Source: Bacteroidia bacterium (GTDB taxonomy: Bacteria > Bacteroidota > Bacteroidia > J057). Taken from it: a DNA stretch of 64,000 nt. The notes under the pieces were generated by a model, which worked only from the letters and a program-made list of their open reading frames with translations, was not told the origin of the DNA and did no database searches. A program made the position numbers and the translations under genes. The stretch is taken from the NCBI GenBank assembly GCA_022760475.1, contig JALEFZ010000004.1, positions 1-64,000 of the forward strand. The letters run 5' to 3'. Below are positions 54,884 to 64,000 of the stretch, one piece after another (the stretch's first letter is position 1; every line of letters starts with the position of its first letter).

Positions 54884-57625
54884 ATGAAGCAGCTTATTAT
54901 TATTTGGCTGGTTGCCCTGATGCTAGTCCCTTTTTCTTCCATAATCGCCCAGGATCGGCAAACTAATACACTGCTGTTAGCCAGTCTGTTGGCAGAAAAT
55001 GAAGAGTTGGTCAAGGAATGGGTTGAAAATAAGGTGGATGTATTTTATTTAAATGCCAATTATTCGGTAGATACATCTGGCTTGCATGGCCTTTATCGAT
55101 TTTTTGATGAGCCCTTTGGAGAGAATGTGAGTACCAATTTGGAACCCTTTGCCAGATTGAAGTCCTACATTGACCAAAATGAAGCTGCAAAAAGTCAGGT
55201 AGAATCTGGGAGTTACCCAGCACTAAAGGAGTGTTTTCCAGAATTACCCCTAAGCTATGATGAGTTTGTCAACTCTCCGAAAATCCTGCTTACGGATGAC
55301 ATGCGTCTATGCATTCAACTGGATAAGTGGAGTGATTTCATCTTCAGGGTAGTTGATGGGACCATTTTACAAACCTATTGGGAGGAAGGCCTTTTTTCGA
55401 CTTCAAAAAGAGAGGCCTTATTATCAGCCCATCGAATACTAAGGGGACAAGGGACACCTTCGGACAGCTTTGCCATTAGAAACTTATCCACCATTGCCAG
55501 AGACCTGGAAGGCCAAATTTCCCTCATGAAAATAAGAAAGGAGGGAATTCCATATTACCTCTACGCCAAACTGCGTTCTTGCAATGCTTTCTACCCAAGG
55601 CAGTATGTTCAGTTTGTCAATGAGGATAAGTTTATCCTGGAAGAAATTACCATTGCATGTTTTTTTAGGAAGATTTCTGAAGACGAGAAAAGTCAGATTC
55701 AAAAATTATGGCAGGCAATTGACTTCAGGAGTAGAAGTTTCCCCGAAAGGGATGATGAGACTGGAGCTCCCATTATTACCAATACTGAAGGTGGACTCAC
55801 CCCTGAGGAAGGAACTTCAGTGCTTTCAAATTTGACTCGCCTTTCTCCCTCTACCATCATCATCGATGCCAGTGCCCAGTTTTTGGTGGAAAGAACACGA
55901 GAGGAACTGGTTCTATCCTTTTTTGATCAATTTCAAAAACGTATTGACAGCCTGGAAGAACTTCAGTATTTGTTTGACAATACATATGCCCTGCTCAGTA
56001 ACCGGGAAATTCTGAAAGTACCCTCCTTGGGAAAGGCATGGCAAGAAGCATTTGAAATGGACTTAAGGTTGCTCCCTAATAGTTTTGAAAGGATGGTGGA
56101 AGAAAGCCCTCAGTATGCTTTCCTAAAAGAGGAGACAGCATTCAGGCTTTATAAGTTCACCCATGGATTGGTCAAAAAGGACAGTTTGACCCTTGAGTCT
56201 GGCTTAAAAAAACTTTCAAAGAAGAGGCTTGAAGATTGTAAAAACAGCCTTGACACGAGTTTCTATTTGACTTATAGACTATTGGAGGATTTTAGGATTT
56301 CTGAAAATGGTGATTTTCTAGAAATCAAAGACCAAATGGAAGATTTGGGTGAGCGGGCGAGGGAGTTTTTTATTGCCATTCAATATCAAAAAGCTCCTCA
56401 ACTGTTTCAAGCCGTGAAAACCAGTGAAGGTAACGCCAGTTTGGCAGACCGAATGGAAAACCAGACACAGCTCTTTTTTGAAAAGGAAATCCAAGTGGCA
56501 GCCTTATTTTCTAACATTGATAGGGACATTCAGGGATTGGATCGAGTTGAAAGGCCTGAAATTTCCGAAGAAAACGCTGCCTATTTCCAACAGTTGTTAA
56601 AGGATTACCTTGATAAATTACCTGCAAACCTCTCTCAGCTAGGAAGTATAGCCAAGCAAATGGTCAGGTCAGCATTTATGTTCCAGTATTTTGAAAATGA
56701 ATCTCAACTTTATGCTGATCCTACTTATTTAAGGCTGATGGGGGTCATACAAGGAGGAACTGACCTGGTTGGAGCCATTGAGTCCAGAGAACCATCGCGT
56801 ATCCTGATTTCGAGTATTCAGGTGCTTCAACCTTTTTTCGAGATTTTGCAAGAAAAGGAAATTGCCAGGATCAGAGGACTGGAAATTGAGGCCACTCAAA
56901 AATCCGGTCCTGACAAGGTCTTTGCAAGGGTAGAAATTAATAGAGCCATCCATCGCCTGGAACAGGTAGAAGCCGTTTCGCAGCACCTAGGCTTTTATGG
57001 TGGTTTTTTCCTTGATGTTCTTTCAGCCAAGACTTCTGAAGATGTAAAGGCTGCTTTATACCGATATGCACTCCCTCCAGGATCATATCGATTGAAAAGG
57101 GAGTCTTTGTTTAGCCTCGAACTTGGCGCCATGCCCGGATTTTATACCGGGGTGGAATGGGTCGCAGATTCCACCTTAAGCAATCGTTCTATGTCCAGTG
57201 GTTTTTCAGTTCCTGTGGGCATCAGTTTAAGTTGGGGAAGGCGAAAGAGCACGGACCTGGATGCAAAAGACCCTTATAAATACGTCCTGAAAGGGGATAA
57301 AGCCAAAGCAAAGCAATTGAAAGGAAGTTCTATAGGCTTATACATCCCGATTTTGGATTTGGCGGCTCCATTCAGTTACAGGTGGCAGAATGGATTTGAT
57401 GGAGGCTTGCCAGATGAAGTATATTGGCAACAAATTCTTTCACCAGGAGCATATGTAGTCTGGGGATTGAAGGGGGCTCCGGTTTCTATTTCGGCTGGGG
57501 CGCAGTACCTACCGAGGCTTAGGTCGATTTCGGCGAGTGGAAATGAGTTGGTAGATTTTGATGCGGTTAGAGCAGGAATTAATGTAAGCCTTGACCTGCC
57601 ATTATTCAGCATCATAAAAAGATGA
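54884..57625 (+). CDS. Large exported protein of unknown function
   Basis: 913 residues, signal peptide (1-22, FSSIIAQ). The first 700 residues are mainly helical and charged, with no motif I recognise; the last 220 (from about 735, YRLKRESLFSLELGAMPGFYTGVEWV to GINVSLDLPLFSIIKR) are beta-strand rich and end with an aromatic-containing strand and basic residues, suggesting an outer-membrane barrel or autotransporter-like end. It stands just upstream of the sigma/S8/CHAT cluster on the same strand, 296 bp from the sigma gene; a link is possible but not shown. Confidence 0.65.
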   Translation: MKQLIIIWLVALMLVPFSSIIAQDRQTNTLLLASLLAENEELVKEWVENKVDVFYLNANYSVDTSGLHGLYRFFDEPFGENVSTNLEPFARLKSYIDQNEAAKSQVESGSYPALKECFPELPLSYDEFVNSPKILLTDDMRLCIQLDKWSDFIFRVVDGTILQTYWEEGLFSTSKREALLSAHRILRGQGTPSDSFAIRNLSTIARDLEGQISLMKIRKEGIPYYLYAKLRSCNAFYPRQYVQFVNEDKFILEEITIACFFRKISEDEKSQIQKLWQAIDFRSRSFPERDDETGAPIITNTEGGLTPEEGTSVLSNLTRLSPSTIIIDASAQFLVERTREELVLSFFDQFQKRIDSLEELQYLFDNTYALLSNREILKVPSLGKAWQEAFEMDLRLLPNSFERMVEESPQYAFLKEETAFRLYKFTHGLVKKDSLTLESGLKKLSKKRLEDCKNSLDTSFYLTYRLLEDFRISENGDFLEIKDQMEDLGERAREFFIAIQYQKAPQLFQAVKTSEGNASLADRMENQTQLFFEKEIQVAALFSNIDRDIQGLDRVERPEISEENAAYFQQLLKDYLDKLPANLSQLGSIAKQMVRSAFMFQYFENESQLYADPTYLRLMGVIQGGTDLVGAIESREPSRILISSIQVLQPFFEILQEKEIARIRGLEIEATQKSGPDKVFARVEINRAIHRLEQVEAVSQHLGFYGGFFLDVLSAKTSEDVKAALYRYALPPGSYRLKRESLFSLELGAMPGFYTGVEWVADSTLSNRSMSSGFSVPVGISLSWGRRKSTDLDAKDPYKYVLKGDKAKAKQLKGSSIGLYIPILDLAAPFSYRWQNGFDGGLPDEVYWQQILSPGAYVVWGLKGAPVSISAGAQYLPRLRSISASGNELVDFDAVRAGINVSLDLPLFSIIKR

Positions 57626-57893: not shown

Positions 57894-57921
57894 AACCCCT
57901 ATTGCATAACCCCTATTACAT
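57894..57921 (+). repeat. Tandem 14-bp direct repeat abutting the sigma-factor start
   Basis: AACCCCTATTGCAT (57894-57907) and AACCCCTATTACAT (57908-57921) lie head to tail with one mismatch and run straight into the ATG at 57922. Two copies in phase of 14 bp could be an operator pair for the sigma gene; if so translation may start further downstream. The rest of 57626-57893 is AT-rich without a gene. Confidence 0.6.
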
Positions 57922-58614
57922 ATGGACAGCTTGGAGAAGAGAGTTTACCAGGTGAAAATGAATTTACGAGAACAGGAAAATTCCGTAAATTTAGACAATA
58001 ACCCTGCTAGGAACTCTATGACTGTGAGAAAAACCCGCAAAGCTCAATCGGGATATGATACCCTGTCAGACCATGAGTTGGTAGAGATTTTTATTTCTAA
58101 CCAGGATGGAGCGGCATTGAATATTCTGTTGAATCGTTATGATCGCTATATCTTCGGTATAGCATGGCCTATCCTGAAGCACCAGGAGGAGGTAAGAGAC
58201 CTGAAGCAGGACCTTTACCTCAAACTAAACAAGAAACTGAATACCCACGCACCGACCGGAACTTTTAGGGTCTGGTTGGGAAGGGTAGTTCGAAACCATT
58301 GCTATGATTTGTTGAGAAAGAAGATGCCTGAAGCATGGGAAGAATTGCCAGAAAGGGAATTTGATGATATAGACGATGCTGATATGAAGATGGACTTTGG
58401 TACCATCAGGGAATGTGTAGAACAACTTAATCCCCAGCAGCGATTATATGTCGAGATGGCATTTTTCAAAGGAATGAAGAATGCGGAAATAACCAAAACA
58501 ATGAATTGGCCCAAAAATAGGGCAAGGGCTTTATATGACAACTCATTGAAAAAACTTAGGAAATGCATGGGGCATTTGTTTGATGAGTACAAGGGGTATT
58601 TTGATAAAGATTAA
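57922..58614 (+). CDS. ECF-type sigma-70 family RNA polymerase sigma factor
   Basis: 230 residues from ATG 57922; ATG 58018 (MTVRKTRKAQSG, preceded by AGGAA) would remove a 32-residue extension that ECF factors normally lack. Region 2 is around LNRYDRYIFGIAWPILKHQEEVRDLKQDLYLKLNKK and RVWLGRVVRNHCYDLLRKK; region 4 is IRECVEQLNPQQRLYVEMAFFKGMKNAEITKTMNWPKNRARALYDNSLKKLRK with the HTH. It should direct transcription of target genes, likely the genes that follow. Only 11 bp separate it from the anti-sigma-like gene. Confidence 0.9.
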   Translation: MDSLEKRVYQVKMNLREQENSVNLDNNPARNSMTVRKTRKAQSGYDTLSDHELVEIFISNQDGAALNILLNRYDRYIFGIAWPILKHQEEVRDLKQDLYLKLNKKLNTHAPTGTFRVWLGRVVRNHCYDLLRKKMPEAWEELPEREFDDIDDADMKMDFGTIRECVEQLNPQQRLYVEMAFFKGMKNAEITKTMNWPKNRARALYDNSLKKLRKCMGHLFDEYKGYFDKD

Positions 58615-58625
58615 AGGTTACAAGA

Positions 58626-59465
58626 ATGTCAAATACGGAAATTACAATGGATGAACTCATTCAATACCTGGAGGGAAAGGCATCAGACATCCTTATAAGA
58701 AGGATTGAGAAGCAAAGGTCTGAGGATGAGGAATTCGGTGAGGAAATGGATGAATGGGAGTCCCGATTGAATGAGGAAGAGGACAAGGAGGCTTTTTTCC
58801 AACAAATGAAAATGATGGAAGAGGCATGGCAATCTACAGATCTCTCTCATCTCATTCAAGAATATGAAAAGAGTGAAAAAGAAGGGCTGGTAATTGCTCG
58901 AAACATTAAGTTTCCCAGCTGGGTACCCATCGCGATTGCTGCAGCGATTGCTCTGATCATCCTCTCAGTCTTTGTCCTGAATTCTAATTCCTCGAATACA
59001 GGGATCAATACCCAGCAGCAACTGGCCCAGGAATTGAACAGCAAAGTAGCCATTTTAATTGGACCTGAGGCTGCTGTAGGAAACAGCTCTGAGGGAAAAA
59101 GTTTCAAAATGCAAGCATGGGAAGCATTCGAGCGCGGGGAGTTCGAAGAGTCCCTTCGGATGGTGGATTCCATGATCAGCAATGATCCCCTTAACGCAGA
59201 CAATTATCTTCTTAAAGGCTTGATCTATGAGAAGTTTGGAAAATCTGCCGAAGCCTTGAAAATGCTCGAGCAAACTTCTCAGATGGATACAGAAGATTTG
59301 CCTGTAACTTGCGAAAGTCTTTGGTATATGATGTTAATTTTTGCTAAAGATGGTGAAAGCAGCCAATTTTCAGAAACCTTCAACCGTTGGAAAAATGGAA
59401 AATGTGGTCAGCTAGATGCAGGAAGATTAGGTCAGCTTAACCAGATTCAGAAAACACTGAAATAA
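58626..59465 (+). CDS. Anti-sigma-like membrane protein with periplasmic TPR domain
   Basis: 279 residues. N-terminal cytoplasmic part MDELIQYLEGKASDILIRRIEKQ resembles the start of short anti-sigma factors (xEYLxGxLs), one transmembrane helix at about 99-118 (WVPIAIAAAIALIILSVFVL), and a periplasmic part with two TPR-like helix pairs (AWEAFERGEFEESLRMVDSMISNDPLNADNYLLKGLIYEKFGKSAEALKMLEQ, about 165-220). No zinc HCCC motif is visible. The sigma gene ends 11 bp before it. I infer it holds the sigma factor at the membrane and senses periplasmic proteins through its TPRs. Confidence 0.75.
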   Translation: MSNTEITMDELIQYLEGKASDILIRRIEKQRSEDEEFGEEMDEWESRLNEEEDKEAFFQQMKMMEEAWQSTDLSHLIQEYEKSEKEGLVIARNIKFPSWVPIAIAAAIALIILSVFVLNSNSSNTGINTQQQLAQELNSKVAILIGPEAAVGNSSEGKSFKMQAWEAFERGEFEESLRMVDSMISNDPLNADNYLLKGLIYEKFGKSAEALKMLEQTSQMDTEDLPVTCESLWYMMLIFAKDGESSQFSETFNRWKNGKCGQLDAGRLGQLNQIQKTLK

Positions 59466-59493
59466 AAACGAAATCACACACCTATGATCAGGT

Positions 59494-59507
59494 CCTCCTT
59501 CGGGAGG
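59494..59507 (+). terminator. Hairpin between the anti-sigma-like and S8 genes
   Basis: CCTCC-TTCG-GGAGG, a 5-bp stem with a UUCG tetraloop followed by GCTACTTTTG. Stable, but the weak T-tract means read-through or partial termination is likely. Confidence 0.4.
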
Positions 59508-59568
59508 GCTACTTTTGATGAATAGCAATTTTTTTGCTCCTCCAATACAACTATAATCATTAACCCCA

Positions 59569-61899
59569 ATGAAAAGCTCAATCAGATTACTCCTACTGTT
59601 TCTTTTAGTTATAAGTTACTCTTATGCCCAGCAGCAAGTCCAAGGCCCGGTAAATCGGGGAGACTCTTTAGCCCTGCTGGAGATTTATAGGAAGGCCGGA
59701 GGCCCACAATGGAACAATACCCAATCAGGAAACCAACCTTGGGATGCCAAAAATCCCGTTTCTTCCTGGTTTGGTGTAGAACTGGACGCGAATGGAGACA
59801 GGGTCATTAGGCTCAACCTGGCCGGAAATAATCTTGTAGACTCCATTTCTGCCGCAATCAATGCTTTGACAGAACTGTCAGATTTGAACCTGGCTCAGAA
59901 TAAAATCGAAGATCTGCCTGCCCTGCCTGGACTTCAGGTAGTCAAATCTATTAATGTAGACCAAAATAGGCTGACCTTTGACGATATCGATGTCCTAAGG
60001 CTTACTCCAGCGATTTTTTCCTATGTAAATCAGGATTCTGTAGGCTCCAGGACTGTAATCCCGGCTTATGCTGGGGAGCCTCTTGAACTAACTACGGATG
60101 TAGATCCCCGAACTGGTAGGTCTAGCCTTTTCAGGTGGTACCAAAATACGATAGGAGGTACGCCTATTGCCACAGGAAGGACGTTTACGGACTCTTTTCC
60201 TTCTCCAAACTCAGTCGGAGTCTATTATTATACCATCTATAACCCTGATTTTCCTCAAGACACCTTGCTGGTTAGCAAGCCCATAGTTGTCAACTTCTAC
60301 AACAAACCCAATCCATTTCCTGATGGGCCATTGAGCTTTATTTTGACCTTGACAGAAGATGACCTAAACAATCCTACCTACCTACAAGACTTGCAACAGA
60401 ACCTCATCGAGGCAGGAGGAACTAAGCGAGATAGTTGTTTGTGTGGAACCTTCCAGGTTTGGGAGTTTGAGTCCATCAAATCAGGGGATGATATCATCAT
60501 TGATCCTAATTCAGTAGGAGTGGGACTAGGTTTTATCCCTCCGCGTGAAGATAGTACCAAGCCGGGTTTTGACATCAATTACAGAATGATGTTTGGTGAT
60601 GACGAAATTCCAAATACAAAGTGGGCCTACGACGCCAACGCAGTTCAGGGCTTGGCAGAACTGAGTAATTCTGTCCAGGATGCTGTAGTTGCAGTCATTG
60701 ACCTGGGGGTTGAAGCAAGCCACCCTGCCTTTGATGGGAAAATGTATGTAGACAATTCCTCAAGTCCCAAAGGTATGGATGATTGCTACACCAATGACCC
60801 CAGTGGGGTAAACCTTCAAAATCCAATGATACAGCCCTTTAATGACATTACTGGGCATGGTACACACATCGCAAATGTGGTTCATTCACTCTTGCCTAAG
60901 GCAAGGATCAAGATCATGAGCATCCAGGTCGGAGACTCTGATACCTCTGCCACTGTGTTTAAGGTGGCATGTGGAGTTGAGTATGCCTTGAGACATGAGG
61001 TGGACGTAATCAACATCAGCATGGGATATTTGGGAGAGAATGTACCCCTGTTGGATAGCATCATGACGACTTCCAAAGCGAAAAAAACCGTCATGGTTAC
61101 TGCAGCCGGTAACGATGGCTTAAGTACCGATAGCAACGACCATTGGCCATCAAACCTGGCTAAAGATCCTGCGAATATTCATATTTTCTCGGTAGCCTCT
61201 TTTGGCAAGGACAGCCTCGGAAACTTCAGAATCAGTGATCACTCCAATTTTGGTATCCAATCTGTAAACATCGCTGCTCCAGGAGAAAACATCTTCAGCG
61301 CAGTGAACGATAGTAAGTATGGATTCAAAAGTGGAACTTCGATGGCGGCAGGATTTGTGTCTGCCTTTGCCGCAGCTTTGAGGGCTTCAGATCCAAGCAT
61401 GACTCCGGTAGTAATCAGAGAAAAATTTCTTGGAACAAACATTACTGTGCAAGAGGCAGCATTTGAAACCAAAATCGAAGGAGGAAGAAGGCTCAATGTC
61501 GATATCATTGATTGTTTTACCCAACCCCAAACCAAAAATGACTCTGCCAAGCTATCTTGGCTGGAGATTGCCAAAAACATTGAGGTTTACAACAATGATT
61601 GTATTGGCAACAAGAGCATCACTCCTAAAGTAATTGTCTTGCCTACATCCGGAAAGGTGAAATGGGATTCAGACAAACTGACCTTTAGGTATTCGGCAGA
61701 TTTCTTAACCTGGATACTGGGCGCCGAGGATTCCTTTACTTATCAGGTATGTCCAGGTAGCGATCAGACCAATTGTTCGGAAGCCATTGTAAAGGTTCAA
61801 AAGCAAGGGGTAGGAATTCTGGGATTGATTGTGATCATCCTTCTTCTGATCATCATATTGATCAGGTTGATAAGAAGGAACTCGAATACTACACCATGA
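59569..61899 (+). CDS. Membrane-tethered S8 (subtilisin-like) protease with N-terminal LRR
   Basis: 776 residues. Signal peptide (1-20, SYSYAQ), leucine-rich-repeat region (about 35-140: LLEIYRKAGGPQWNN..W, RLNLAGNNLVDSIS, DLNLAQNKIEDLP), beta domain, then subtilase domain about 360-640 with intact triad D378 (VIDLGV), H430 (GHGTH) and S591 (GTSMA) and oxyanion N515 (AAGNDG). After an Ig-like domain a C-terminal helix (about 752-770, ILGLIVIILLLIIILIRLIRR) with basic tail should anchor it in the inner membrane, protease in the periplasm. Between the sigma/anti-sigma pair and the TPR-CHAT gene; a regulatory proteolysis role is inferred. Confidence 0.9.
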   Translation: MKSSIRLLLLFLLVISYSYAQQQVQGPVNRGDSLALLEIYRKAGGPQWNNTQSGNQPWDAKNPVSSWFGVELDANGDRVIRLNLAGNNLVDSISAAINALTELSDLNLAQNKIEDLPALPGLQVVKSINVDQNRLTFDDIDVLRLTPAIFSYVNQDSVGSRTVIPAYAGEPLELTTDVDPRTGRSSLFRWYQNTIGGTPIATGRTFTDSFPSPNSVGVYYYTIYNPDFPQDTLLVSKPIVVNFYNKPNPFPDGPLSFILTLTEDDLNNPTYLQDLQQNLIEAGGTKRDSCLCGTFQVWEFESIKSGDDIIIDPNSVGVGLGFIPPREDSTKPGFDINYRMMFGDDEIPNTKWAYDANAVQGLAELSNSVQDAVVAVIDLGVEASHPAFDGKMYVDNSSSPKGMDDCYTNDPSGVNLQNPMIQPFNDITGHGTHIANVVHSLLPKARIKIMSIQVGDSDTSATVFKVACGVEYALRHEVDVINISMGYLGENVPLLDSIMTTSKAKKTVMVTAAGNDGLSTDSNDHWPSNLAKDPANIHIFSVASFGKDSLGNFRISDHSNFGIQSVNIAAPGENIFSAVNDSKYGFKSGTSMAAGFVSAFAAALRASDPSMTPVVIREKFLGTNITVQEAAFETKIEGGRRLNVDIIDCFTQPQTKNDSAKLSWLEIAKNIEVYNNDCIGNKSITPKVIVLPTSGKVKWDSDKLTFRYSADFLTWILGAEDSFTYQVCPGSDQTNCSEAIVKVQKQGVGILGLIVIILLLIIILIRLIRRNSNTTP

Positions 61900-61921
61900 A
61901 ATAGGTTAAATTGAAGCCTAT

Positions 61922-61956
61922 AAGCTCCATTTGCACAAGGGTTGCAAATGGAGCTT
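61922..61956 (+). terminator. Strong terminator between the S8 protease and CHAT genes
   Basis: AAGCTCCATTTGCA (61922-61935) and TGCAAATGGAGCTT (61943-61956) form a perfect 14-bp stem with a 7-nt loop followed by TTTTTATG. The TPR-CHAT gene therefore has its own promoter or depends on read-through. Confidence 0.9.
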
Positions 61957-62046
61957 TTTTTATGTCAAATCCCCTTTTCCCAAAACTTATATACCAAAAT
62001 TGGAAATAAATGCGTTTTTTACCGTACAACGCTAAGCCCTAGTTTC

Positions 62047-64000
62047 ATGAAAATTGCCACCCAGCTTCTCCTTTTGGGAGGACTACTTTTTAATTTTGCT
62101 TTTTCGCAAAATTGCGAAGCAGATTTGGATGAAAAATTCCAGCTCGCCCTCTCACACCTGAATACTGCTACACAGGCTTCCTCCAAATCCGATTCAGAAT
62201 CTGCCATTGATAGCCTTCTCACCGCACTGAATCACTTAGCGACTTACTCCCTACAGAGTATAGAAGATGAGAACTGTGATAAGAATAAATTACAAAAGCT
62301 TAAGGCAGATAGGATATACAATGCTGCTATGTATATGATTTATGTTCTCCAGCAGGCTGATAACTTTCCTAATTTGAATTCTAAACAGATTTACCTTGGA
62401 GCTTTGAAAGTTCTCGGAAATGCTCGGGAACTGTACCAATCCTCTGGAGAGTTGGCTGAGGGGCATCACACCATTTTCAGAACCTATACAAATGAAGGCA
62501 AATTGCACTCCCTATTTTTTGATTACGATTTGGCAGAGGAATCATTTAACAAAGGAATACTTGAGGCAGAAAAATATAAAGGAAAGCTCGCGGATAAAGA
62601 TCGTCAAGCTTTCTTAGGAGATTTGTTGAGGGAAATAGGTCAAAATGAATCCAAAAAGGGAGCTTATCATGAGGCCCTAAATTATCTTTTTCAGGCACTA
62701 CAGCACTACGAATTGGCCGAGGATAATTTTTACAAGGCAGCCTGTCTTTATAGAATATGCTTCAATTATAGTGAGTCTGAAAACTTTGAGGAATGTATTG
62801 CATATGGCGATAAGTTTAAGATCTTTTTGCCTGAATTTGAGAATGATCCCAACTTTCAGGTTTGGATGATGGATGTAAATCTTTGGTTGGGGGAGGCTTA
62901 TGAAAAACTGGGTAGGTCTGCCAAGGCTTTTGAAGAACTTGATAAGGTAATTGCTAATAAATTCGCAGATGAAAGGTTCAAAGGGTATGCCATAGGTGAA
63001 AAAGGAACAATTTGGCTCCACCTAGGCGAATTTCAAAAGGCGGAAGAAGCACTCAGGAATTCTATTCAGATTTTCTCTTCAACCAATCTGAATATCTATA
63101 AGTCAAGAATTGCCTTGTCTACCATGTACAAATACTTGGGTGAATGCCAGGATGCGAAAAAAGAATGGGAGAAGGCCATACTGGCCTATGACAGTGCCCA
63201 GGTGCTTATCCAGCCACATGGGCCCGCTTCTCCCATCTGGGACGAATACCATGTATCAGAAATTCTGGGTAAAAAAGCCTACGCCTTCTTCAATAAATAC
63301 AAAGAAGACAATGACTCAGGTGATCTCAATATGGCAGATTCGCTTTATGCGAAAGCAATGAAGCTGATTGATGGCCTTCGAAGCAAATTCAAAGAGGATA
63401 ATTCGAAACTCTTTCTTTCAAAAAAAGGTCAGATCATCTACGAAGGAGCAATCAATGTTGCCTTAGCGAAGAATGACTTTTCCAGGGCTTTCCAAATTGC
63501 CGAAAATGCCAAGGCAAACCTGCTTTATGCTACGCTTCAGGACAGAGTTGCAAGGGAGATGTCTTCATTGGCTCCTGAATTTCTAAACCTTGAATATAAT
63601 TTAAAAAGACAACTTGCCCTGCTTGATCTCAAACTGCGCGACATGGATTCCAATGACGGAAGATATACAGCCATGATCGCTGAAAGGGCTGAAACCAAGG
63701 CCAGATTGAATGAGTTGATCGCTGAAATTGAAGCAAAAGACCCGGCTTACTTCTCCATGAAATACGAGAATAAAAGGATCAATGTCATGGAATTACAAGC
63801 AGCCCTTCCCCAACAGACAAGCTTAGCAGAATACTTTGCAGGGGAGGATAGCTGGTATGTTTTTCTGGTAGATAAAGAAGGCATTGAGGTATTTAAGAAT
63901 CCCCGAAATCCGCAGGCAGTAGTTGAGTTCTTCCAAATTTGTTCAAAGCCCAATGGGCTAAAAGTTAATCGTGAAAAATTTGAATCTCTGGCATTTCAGC
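62047..64000 (+). CDS. Exported TPR-CHAT protein, truncated by the window end
   Basis: ATG 62047; 651 codons are visible with no stop. Signal peptide MKIATQLLLLGGLLFNFAFS, then TPR-like helical repeats from about 40 to 480 (for example YHEALNYLFQALQHYELAEDNFYKAA, LWLGEAYEKLGRSAKAFEELDKV, IALSTMYKYLGECQDAKKEWEKAI), a coiled segment, and the start of a CHAT domain (VMELQAALPQQTSLAEYFAGEDSWYVFLVDKEGIEVFKN). CHAT domains are caspase-like (clan CD) proteases; the catalytic His and Cys lie beyond position 64000 and could not be checked. TPRs probably sense partners in the periplasm. Confidence 0.85.
   Translation, partial: MKIATQLLLLGGLLFNFAFSQNCEADLDEKFQLALSHLNTATQASSKSDSESAIDSLLTALNHLATYSLQSIEDENCDKNKLQKLKADRIYNAAMYMIYVLQQADNFPNLNSKQIYLGALKVLGNARELYQSSGELAEGHHTIFRTYTNEGKLHSLFFDYDLAEESFNKGILEAEKYKGKLADKDRQAFLGDLLREIGQNESKKGAYHEALNYLFQALQHYELAEDNFYKAACLYRICFNYSESENFEECIAYGDKFKIFLPEFENDPNFQVWMMDVNLWLGEAYEKLGRSAKAFEELDKVIANKFADERFKGYAIGEKGTIWLHLGEFQKAEEALRNSIQIFSSTNLNIYKSRIALSTMYKYLGECQDAKKEWEKAILAYDSAQVLIQPHGPASPIWDEYHVSEILGKKAYAFFNKYKEDNDSGDLNMADSLYAKAMKLIDGLRSKFKEDNSKLFLSKKGQIIYEGAINVALAKNDFSRAFQIAENAKANLLYATLQDRVAREMSSLAPEFLNLEYNLKRQLALLDLKLRDMDSNDGRYTAMIAERAETKARLNELIAEIEAKDPAYFSMKYENKRINVMELQAALPQQTSLAEYFAGEDSWYVFLVDKEGIEVFKNPRNPQAVVEFFQICSKPNGLKVNREKFESLAFQ

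Follow-up and report, generated by a model that had tools for sequence, protein, structure and literature searches.

In Myxococcus xanthus, the transmembrane anti-sigma factor DdvA carries a CHAT domain (DdvS/DdvA; PDB 8rot, 8rw5), and inactivation of DdvA makes DdvS active (PMC4374960). In the type III-E Craspase system (Cas7-11, Csx29, Csx30 and CASP-sigma; PMC10028731), a TPR-CHAT protease cuts the inhibitor of an ECF sigma factor; the reported cleavage sites are non-basic, lying between A and S, L and D, and M and K (PMC11106740). Site-1/site-2 cascades such as RseA/DegS/RseP act on anti-sigma factors with one membrane helix, and DegS is the site-1 enzyme of the RseA cascade. Finally, subtilase and CHAT genes are found in the conserved context of ECF54, for which proteolytic control was proposed (PMC8999054). 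Coupling between a sigma factor and these proteases has therefore been proposed before, without an anti-sigma factor.

The locus studied here lies at the end of a 64,000-nucleotide stretch of DNA that was analysed as a whole (the window). It encodes an ECF sigma factor, a TPR anti-sigma-like protein, an exported subtilase and an exported TPR-CHAT protease. We consider it moderately probable, judging from sequence, that the locus is one copy of a Bacteroidota signalling module in which CHAT would cut the anti-sigma protein to free sigma. Whereas DdvA combines anti-sigma and CHAT in one chain, the window encodes them in two separate genes; the DdvA fusion lends independent support to the idea that the two functions belong together. 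The scheme of a TPR-CHAT acting on a sigma inhibitor is shared with Craspase, but Craspase is RNA-guided and cytosolic, whereas the window proteins are exported or membrane-bound. Among the cluster genes and the two flanking genes, no match to Cas7-11 or Csx30 was found; membership in type III-E CRISPR was rejected, and the link to it is one of analogy only. The locus also resembles the RseA-type cascades in its one-helix anti-sigma-like protein and in the presence of an M50 protease in the host genome, but here CHAT, a cysteine protease of clan CD, is proposed for the site-1 step in place of DegS. ECF54 is described without an anti-sigma factor (PMC8999054), whereas the window encodes an anti-sigma-like gene 11 bp downstream of sigma, and membership in ECF54 was rejected on this trait. 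We found no published description of the sigma/TPR anti-sigma/CHAT arrangement in the literature searched, a scope that did not include the main ECF re-classification.

An earlier note on this DNA had described a four-gene cluster, which is borne out by Pfam matches, topology and catalytic residues: all four genes are genuine and intact, with genes called as simple ORFs and signal peptides judged by hydrophobicity alone. The sigma factor (57922-58614, + strand; 230 aa) has both domains of the ECF class above cut-off (Sigma70_r2, 34 bits; r4, 28 bits) and scores 75.7 bits with TIGR02937. Eleven base pairs downstream, as the note had read it, starts the gene for the 279-aa anti-sigma-like protein (58626-59465, + strand), with one helix at residues 100-118 and TPRs at the C-terminus. 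Its AlphaFold model (mean pLDDT 82) predicts helices at 8-70, four of them making up the N-terminal part, a membrane helix at 100-120 and TPRs at 160-278. A periplasmic linker, in which relatives have the Arg-small site described below, spans about residues 119-160 (58980-59105, + strand). One helix is present in 99 of 99 family members examined, preceded by positive and followed by slightly negative charge, so that the N-terminus would lie inside and the TPRs outside. The NCBIfam anti-sigma model matches 23 of 38 family members (best 3.5e-12) and gives no match to the divergent window protein, which was assigned to the family by profile A1 and its AlphaFold model. A fold search with the anti-sigma model returned essentially TPR and designed helical proteins and thus did not test the N-terminal domain. 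From sequence, the membrane protein beside sigma probably holds sigma off.

The third gene encodes the exported S8 subtilase (59569-61899, + strand; 776 aa; Peptidase_S8 E = 1.3e-26). The Asp-His-Ser triad read earlier is intact, with D378 and S591 confirmed and H430 being the first His of HGTH (the second is 433), and the C-terminal membrane anchor corresponds to a helix at 750-768. The N-terminal region, on which the note was silent, is LRR-like, with LRR_4 below the Pfam cut-off. Between this gene and CHAT lies a strong terminator-like hairpin of 14 pairs followed by a T run (61922-61956, + strand), despite which terminator-like sites in the region overall are no more frequent than in shuffles.

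The exported TPR-CHAT gene (62047-64000, + strand) has its first 651 residues in the window. A His-Cys dyad, which the note had proposed to look for in the completed gene, is present: the ORF runs from the ATG at 62047 to a stop at contig base 65049 and encodes 1000 aa with His822 and Cys869 (CHAT Pfam E = 2e-50). The dyad is invariant across 50 aligned relatives. A C-terminal helix at about residue 973 is followed by a basic tail; such a helix occurs in 155 of 178 CHATs, 98% of them with a basic tail. A fold search with the model of a relative's CHAT, from which the caspase/separase fold is assigned, returned Csx29 as the best match, along with separases and DdvA; in sequence, too, DdvA ranks first among the PDB matches to the CHAT profile. 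Flanking the cluster, a 913-aa exported protein with no Pfam, NCBIfam or PADLOC match is encoded upstream of sigma (54884-57625), and a 1759-aa protein with a T9SS sorting domain directly follows CHAT (contig C7, 65252-70531, outside the window).

Locus surveys showed that the neighbours of homologues are non-random; random neighbours would, according to the note, have weakened the idea of one system. A fixed four-gene order, in contrast, did not hold up as a conserved unit, since order and gene orientation vary and S8 is usually absent. The conserved unit is three genes: the ECF sigma factor, the one-helix TPR anti-sigma-like protein and the exported TPR-CHAT, found together in 74 loci over all surveys. 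In the host genome, where 56 sigma factors match the profile and 13 of the 17 CHAT matches are long (most of the 13 being exported TPR-CHATs), sigma and a one-helix partner lie near 6 of the 13 long CHATs in tandem, convergent and divergent arrangements. The other four matches (L020-L023; host contigs C13, C95, C43 and C50) are shorter and lack the TPR-anchor layout, some beside large proteins, and are possibly cytosolic CHAT effector types. Thirteen genomes of the family hold about 130 long CHATs.

In three genomes, 25 of 35 anti-sigma genes (6/11, 10/15 and 9/9) have a CHAT gene no more than 10 kb away (p = 5e-7 to 1e-15), a count that is partly circular because the anti-sigma profile was built from CHAT-linked members. 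A fairer count comes from 20 anti-sigma loci of other Bacteroidota families, taken regardless of CHAT from a search of 396 Bacteroidota genomes in which scoring covered the six top candidates of each genome, so that per-genome counts are lower bounds; CHAT lies within a few genes or 10 kb in 13 of the 20. When the search started from CHAT, linkage to the pair was seen in 27 of 80 named loci, with some contigs too short to tell, and a sigma/anti-sigma pair of this kind is missing near about two thirds of CHAT genes. Sigma/TPR anti-sigma pairs also occur with no CHAT nearby (L088-L092 and L093-L097), several of them beside exported proteins of unknown function, and many of their linkers still carry Arg or Lys. 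In one record from candidate division KSB1 (L136), sigma, a TPR membrane protein and CHAT stand in a row with sigma and the TPR protein upstream; the layout may reach beyond Bacteroidota.

The S8 gene is an optional partner of this module. Of 76 CHAT genes in four genomes, only 6 are immediately preceded by an S8 gene in the same orientation, compared with about 0.14 expected from a rough gene-count estimate; the host genome has 21 S8 matches, and searching public genomes by way of S8 gave no result. All four genes recur in the order of the window in L024, of the same family, and in L117, of another family, although the latter may have arisen independently because its sigma and anti-sigma proteins are not closely related to those in the window. 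In L024, each of the four proteins has its counterpart at the window locus, and so does a fifth, a T9SS-sorted surface protein beyond CHAT on the opposite strand, which corresponds to the 1759-aa protein.

We next consider whether the three proteins evolve together. Across the 74 triplets, the distances of the three proteins are correlated with one another, and when 37 triplets were permuted within genomes, none of 5000 permutations gave correlations as high as those observed (r = 0.57, 0.43 and 0.51). Such co-divergence could also stem from physical linkage alone, without mutual action.

The linker and the CHAT active site provide residue-level comparisons. In the stretch from the membrane helix to the TPRs, RG occurs in 29 of 98 anti-sigma linkers (5.7 in shuffles) and R[GSTDN] in 66 of 98 (34 in shuffles), with no excess in the TPR control; the periplasmic linker of the family thus contains a conserved Arg-small site. 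An example is the linker IKRGSD of Aquimarina sp. 2201CG14-23 (L171). Over 78 anti-sigma/CHAT pairs, a CHAT Glu column is occupied in 54 of the 56 pairs with a basic-small site but in 7 of the 22 without (p = 4e-9), a comparison in which the site rule was chosen after the linkers had been viewed and related loci are not independent. This Glu, the residue at Cys-2 and an Asp at Cys+37 were the three strongest of 952 column-residue tests, and all three accompany the basic site in 52 of 56 pairs vs. 4 of 22 without it (p = 2e-10). When traits were simulated on the CHAT tree, 0 of 2000 runs gave an association as strong for the Glu column, and when sigma, the anti-sigma domain and the CHAT TPRs were scanned as controls, their best columns reached only 3.9e-4 to 1.5e-3. 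Inspection accounts for several of the exceptions: Arg sits at the edge of the linker segment as cut in L032, L118 and L119, and away from the site in L075 and L078.

In gingipain-R, MALT-1 and caspase-3, P1 is held by residues in three places: where helix alpha1 begins, where beta4 ends and in the loop that follows beta4. The separase model in the same paper has an acidic residue ahead of alpha1 and an Asp where alpha4 begins (PMC4626109). In an AlphaFold model of the L121 CHAT, a strand is followed by a helix with the Glu near its start, and the Asp is found where a different helix begins. The three covarying columns thus appear to coincide with the positions that hold the P1 side chain in clan-CD proteases, an equivalence drawn from sequence and secondary structure. 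The covariation favours CHAT as the site-1 protease acting on the anti-sigma protein.

Computation shows the module and how its proteins sit in the membrane, that the active sites are intact, that the members co-diverge and that the candidate P1 residue matches the protease pocket. From this we infer a course of events that runs from inhibition of sigma through cleavage to later steps, together with a putative signal and regulon. The cytoplasmic N-terminal domain of the one-helix protein would hold the ECF sigma factor, with the TPR domain in the periplasm. A membrane-anchored periplasmic TPR-CHAT of predicted separase/caspase fold would be switched on by a signal read by its TPRs and would then cleave the linker that joins the membrane helix to the TPRs; in most relatives the cut would follow an Arg or Lys. 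The single M50 (RseP-like) protease, the one site-2 match in the host genome (contig C52), and cytoplasmic proteases would finish the cleavage and free sigma. The note had suggested proteolytic sigma release by one module of all four genes. The coupling of sigma and anti-sigma to an outward-facing CHAT is indeed recurrent and co-diverging, and the covariation suggests that CHAT cuts the anti-sigma protein; the four genes as a set are not a conserved unit, and the hairpin between S8 and CHAT is strong.

The window's own pair is an exception to the general rule: the aligned linker part of its anti-sigma-like protein has no basic-small site, and one pocket residue is lost: Glu782 and the Ser at Cys-2 are retained in CHAT, whereas Cys+37 is Ser906. 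The general mechanism is therefore not simply transferable to this copy, in which either CHAT specificity may have changed or the adjacent S8 may make the first cut. If the latter, the subtilase would be the site-1 protease of the window copy, and CHAT would act in a second step, serve as a regulator or have no activity on the anti-sigma protein. The orthologous cluster L024 agrees with such a role, since it too combines an anchored LRR-S8 with an anti-sigma protein that lacks the basic site, and Cys+37 of its CHAT is Asn. On the other hand, the Arg site is kept in the S8-bearing loci L014, L121 and L099; loci of this kind are too few to establish an influence of S8 on the cleavage site, and we regard site-1 cleavage by the subtilase as unlikely, though the most plausible of the alternatives.

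It is less probable still that CHAT (and S8) are simply targets of sigma, which another site-1 protease would free, while the outward-facing proteases act on foreign or damaged proteins. Neighbouring genes are often under ECF control, the orientation of CHAT relative to sigma varies, and GTTAC is weakly enriched upstream of sigma genes (21 vs. 8.2), all of which would fit. However, a search for a promoter shared by sigma and CHAT gave nothing clear: the pairwise motif score was only marginally higher within loci than between them, and enriched promoter words were borderline after correction. Nor would CHAT as a mere target predict that a residue in the anti-sigma linker varies with the S1 pocket of CHAT. 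It is very improbable that the locus is a periplasmic device for defence or self-killing, with CHAT as effector and sigma only tuning dosage: CHAT proteases do act in Craspase and gasdermin activation (PMC9729208), and genomes carry many CHAT copies, but this CHAT is anchored outside the cytoplasm, unlike cytosolic CHAT effectors, and of the genes compared with PADLOC models, S8 alone matches one clearly (a generic subtilase model), the CHAT hits being weak.

In Bacteroidetes, a class I anti-sigma domain is found near only about 6% of ECF sigma factors (PMC7406223). If cleavage of the anti-sigma protein by CHAT is correct, TPR anti-sigma proteins, each paired with a separase-like protease in the periplasm, would help to explain how the others are controlled, caspase-fold enzymes would take part in transcriptional control from outside the cell interior, and the predicted cleavage sites are directly testable. 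More broadly, and with slightly less than even confidence, we suggest that many parallel, insulated protease/anti-sigma copies with matched P1/S1 may constitute a major unrecognised route by which Bacteroidota activate ECF sigma factors, which would explain why classical anti-sigma factors are rare next to ECF genes of this phylum.
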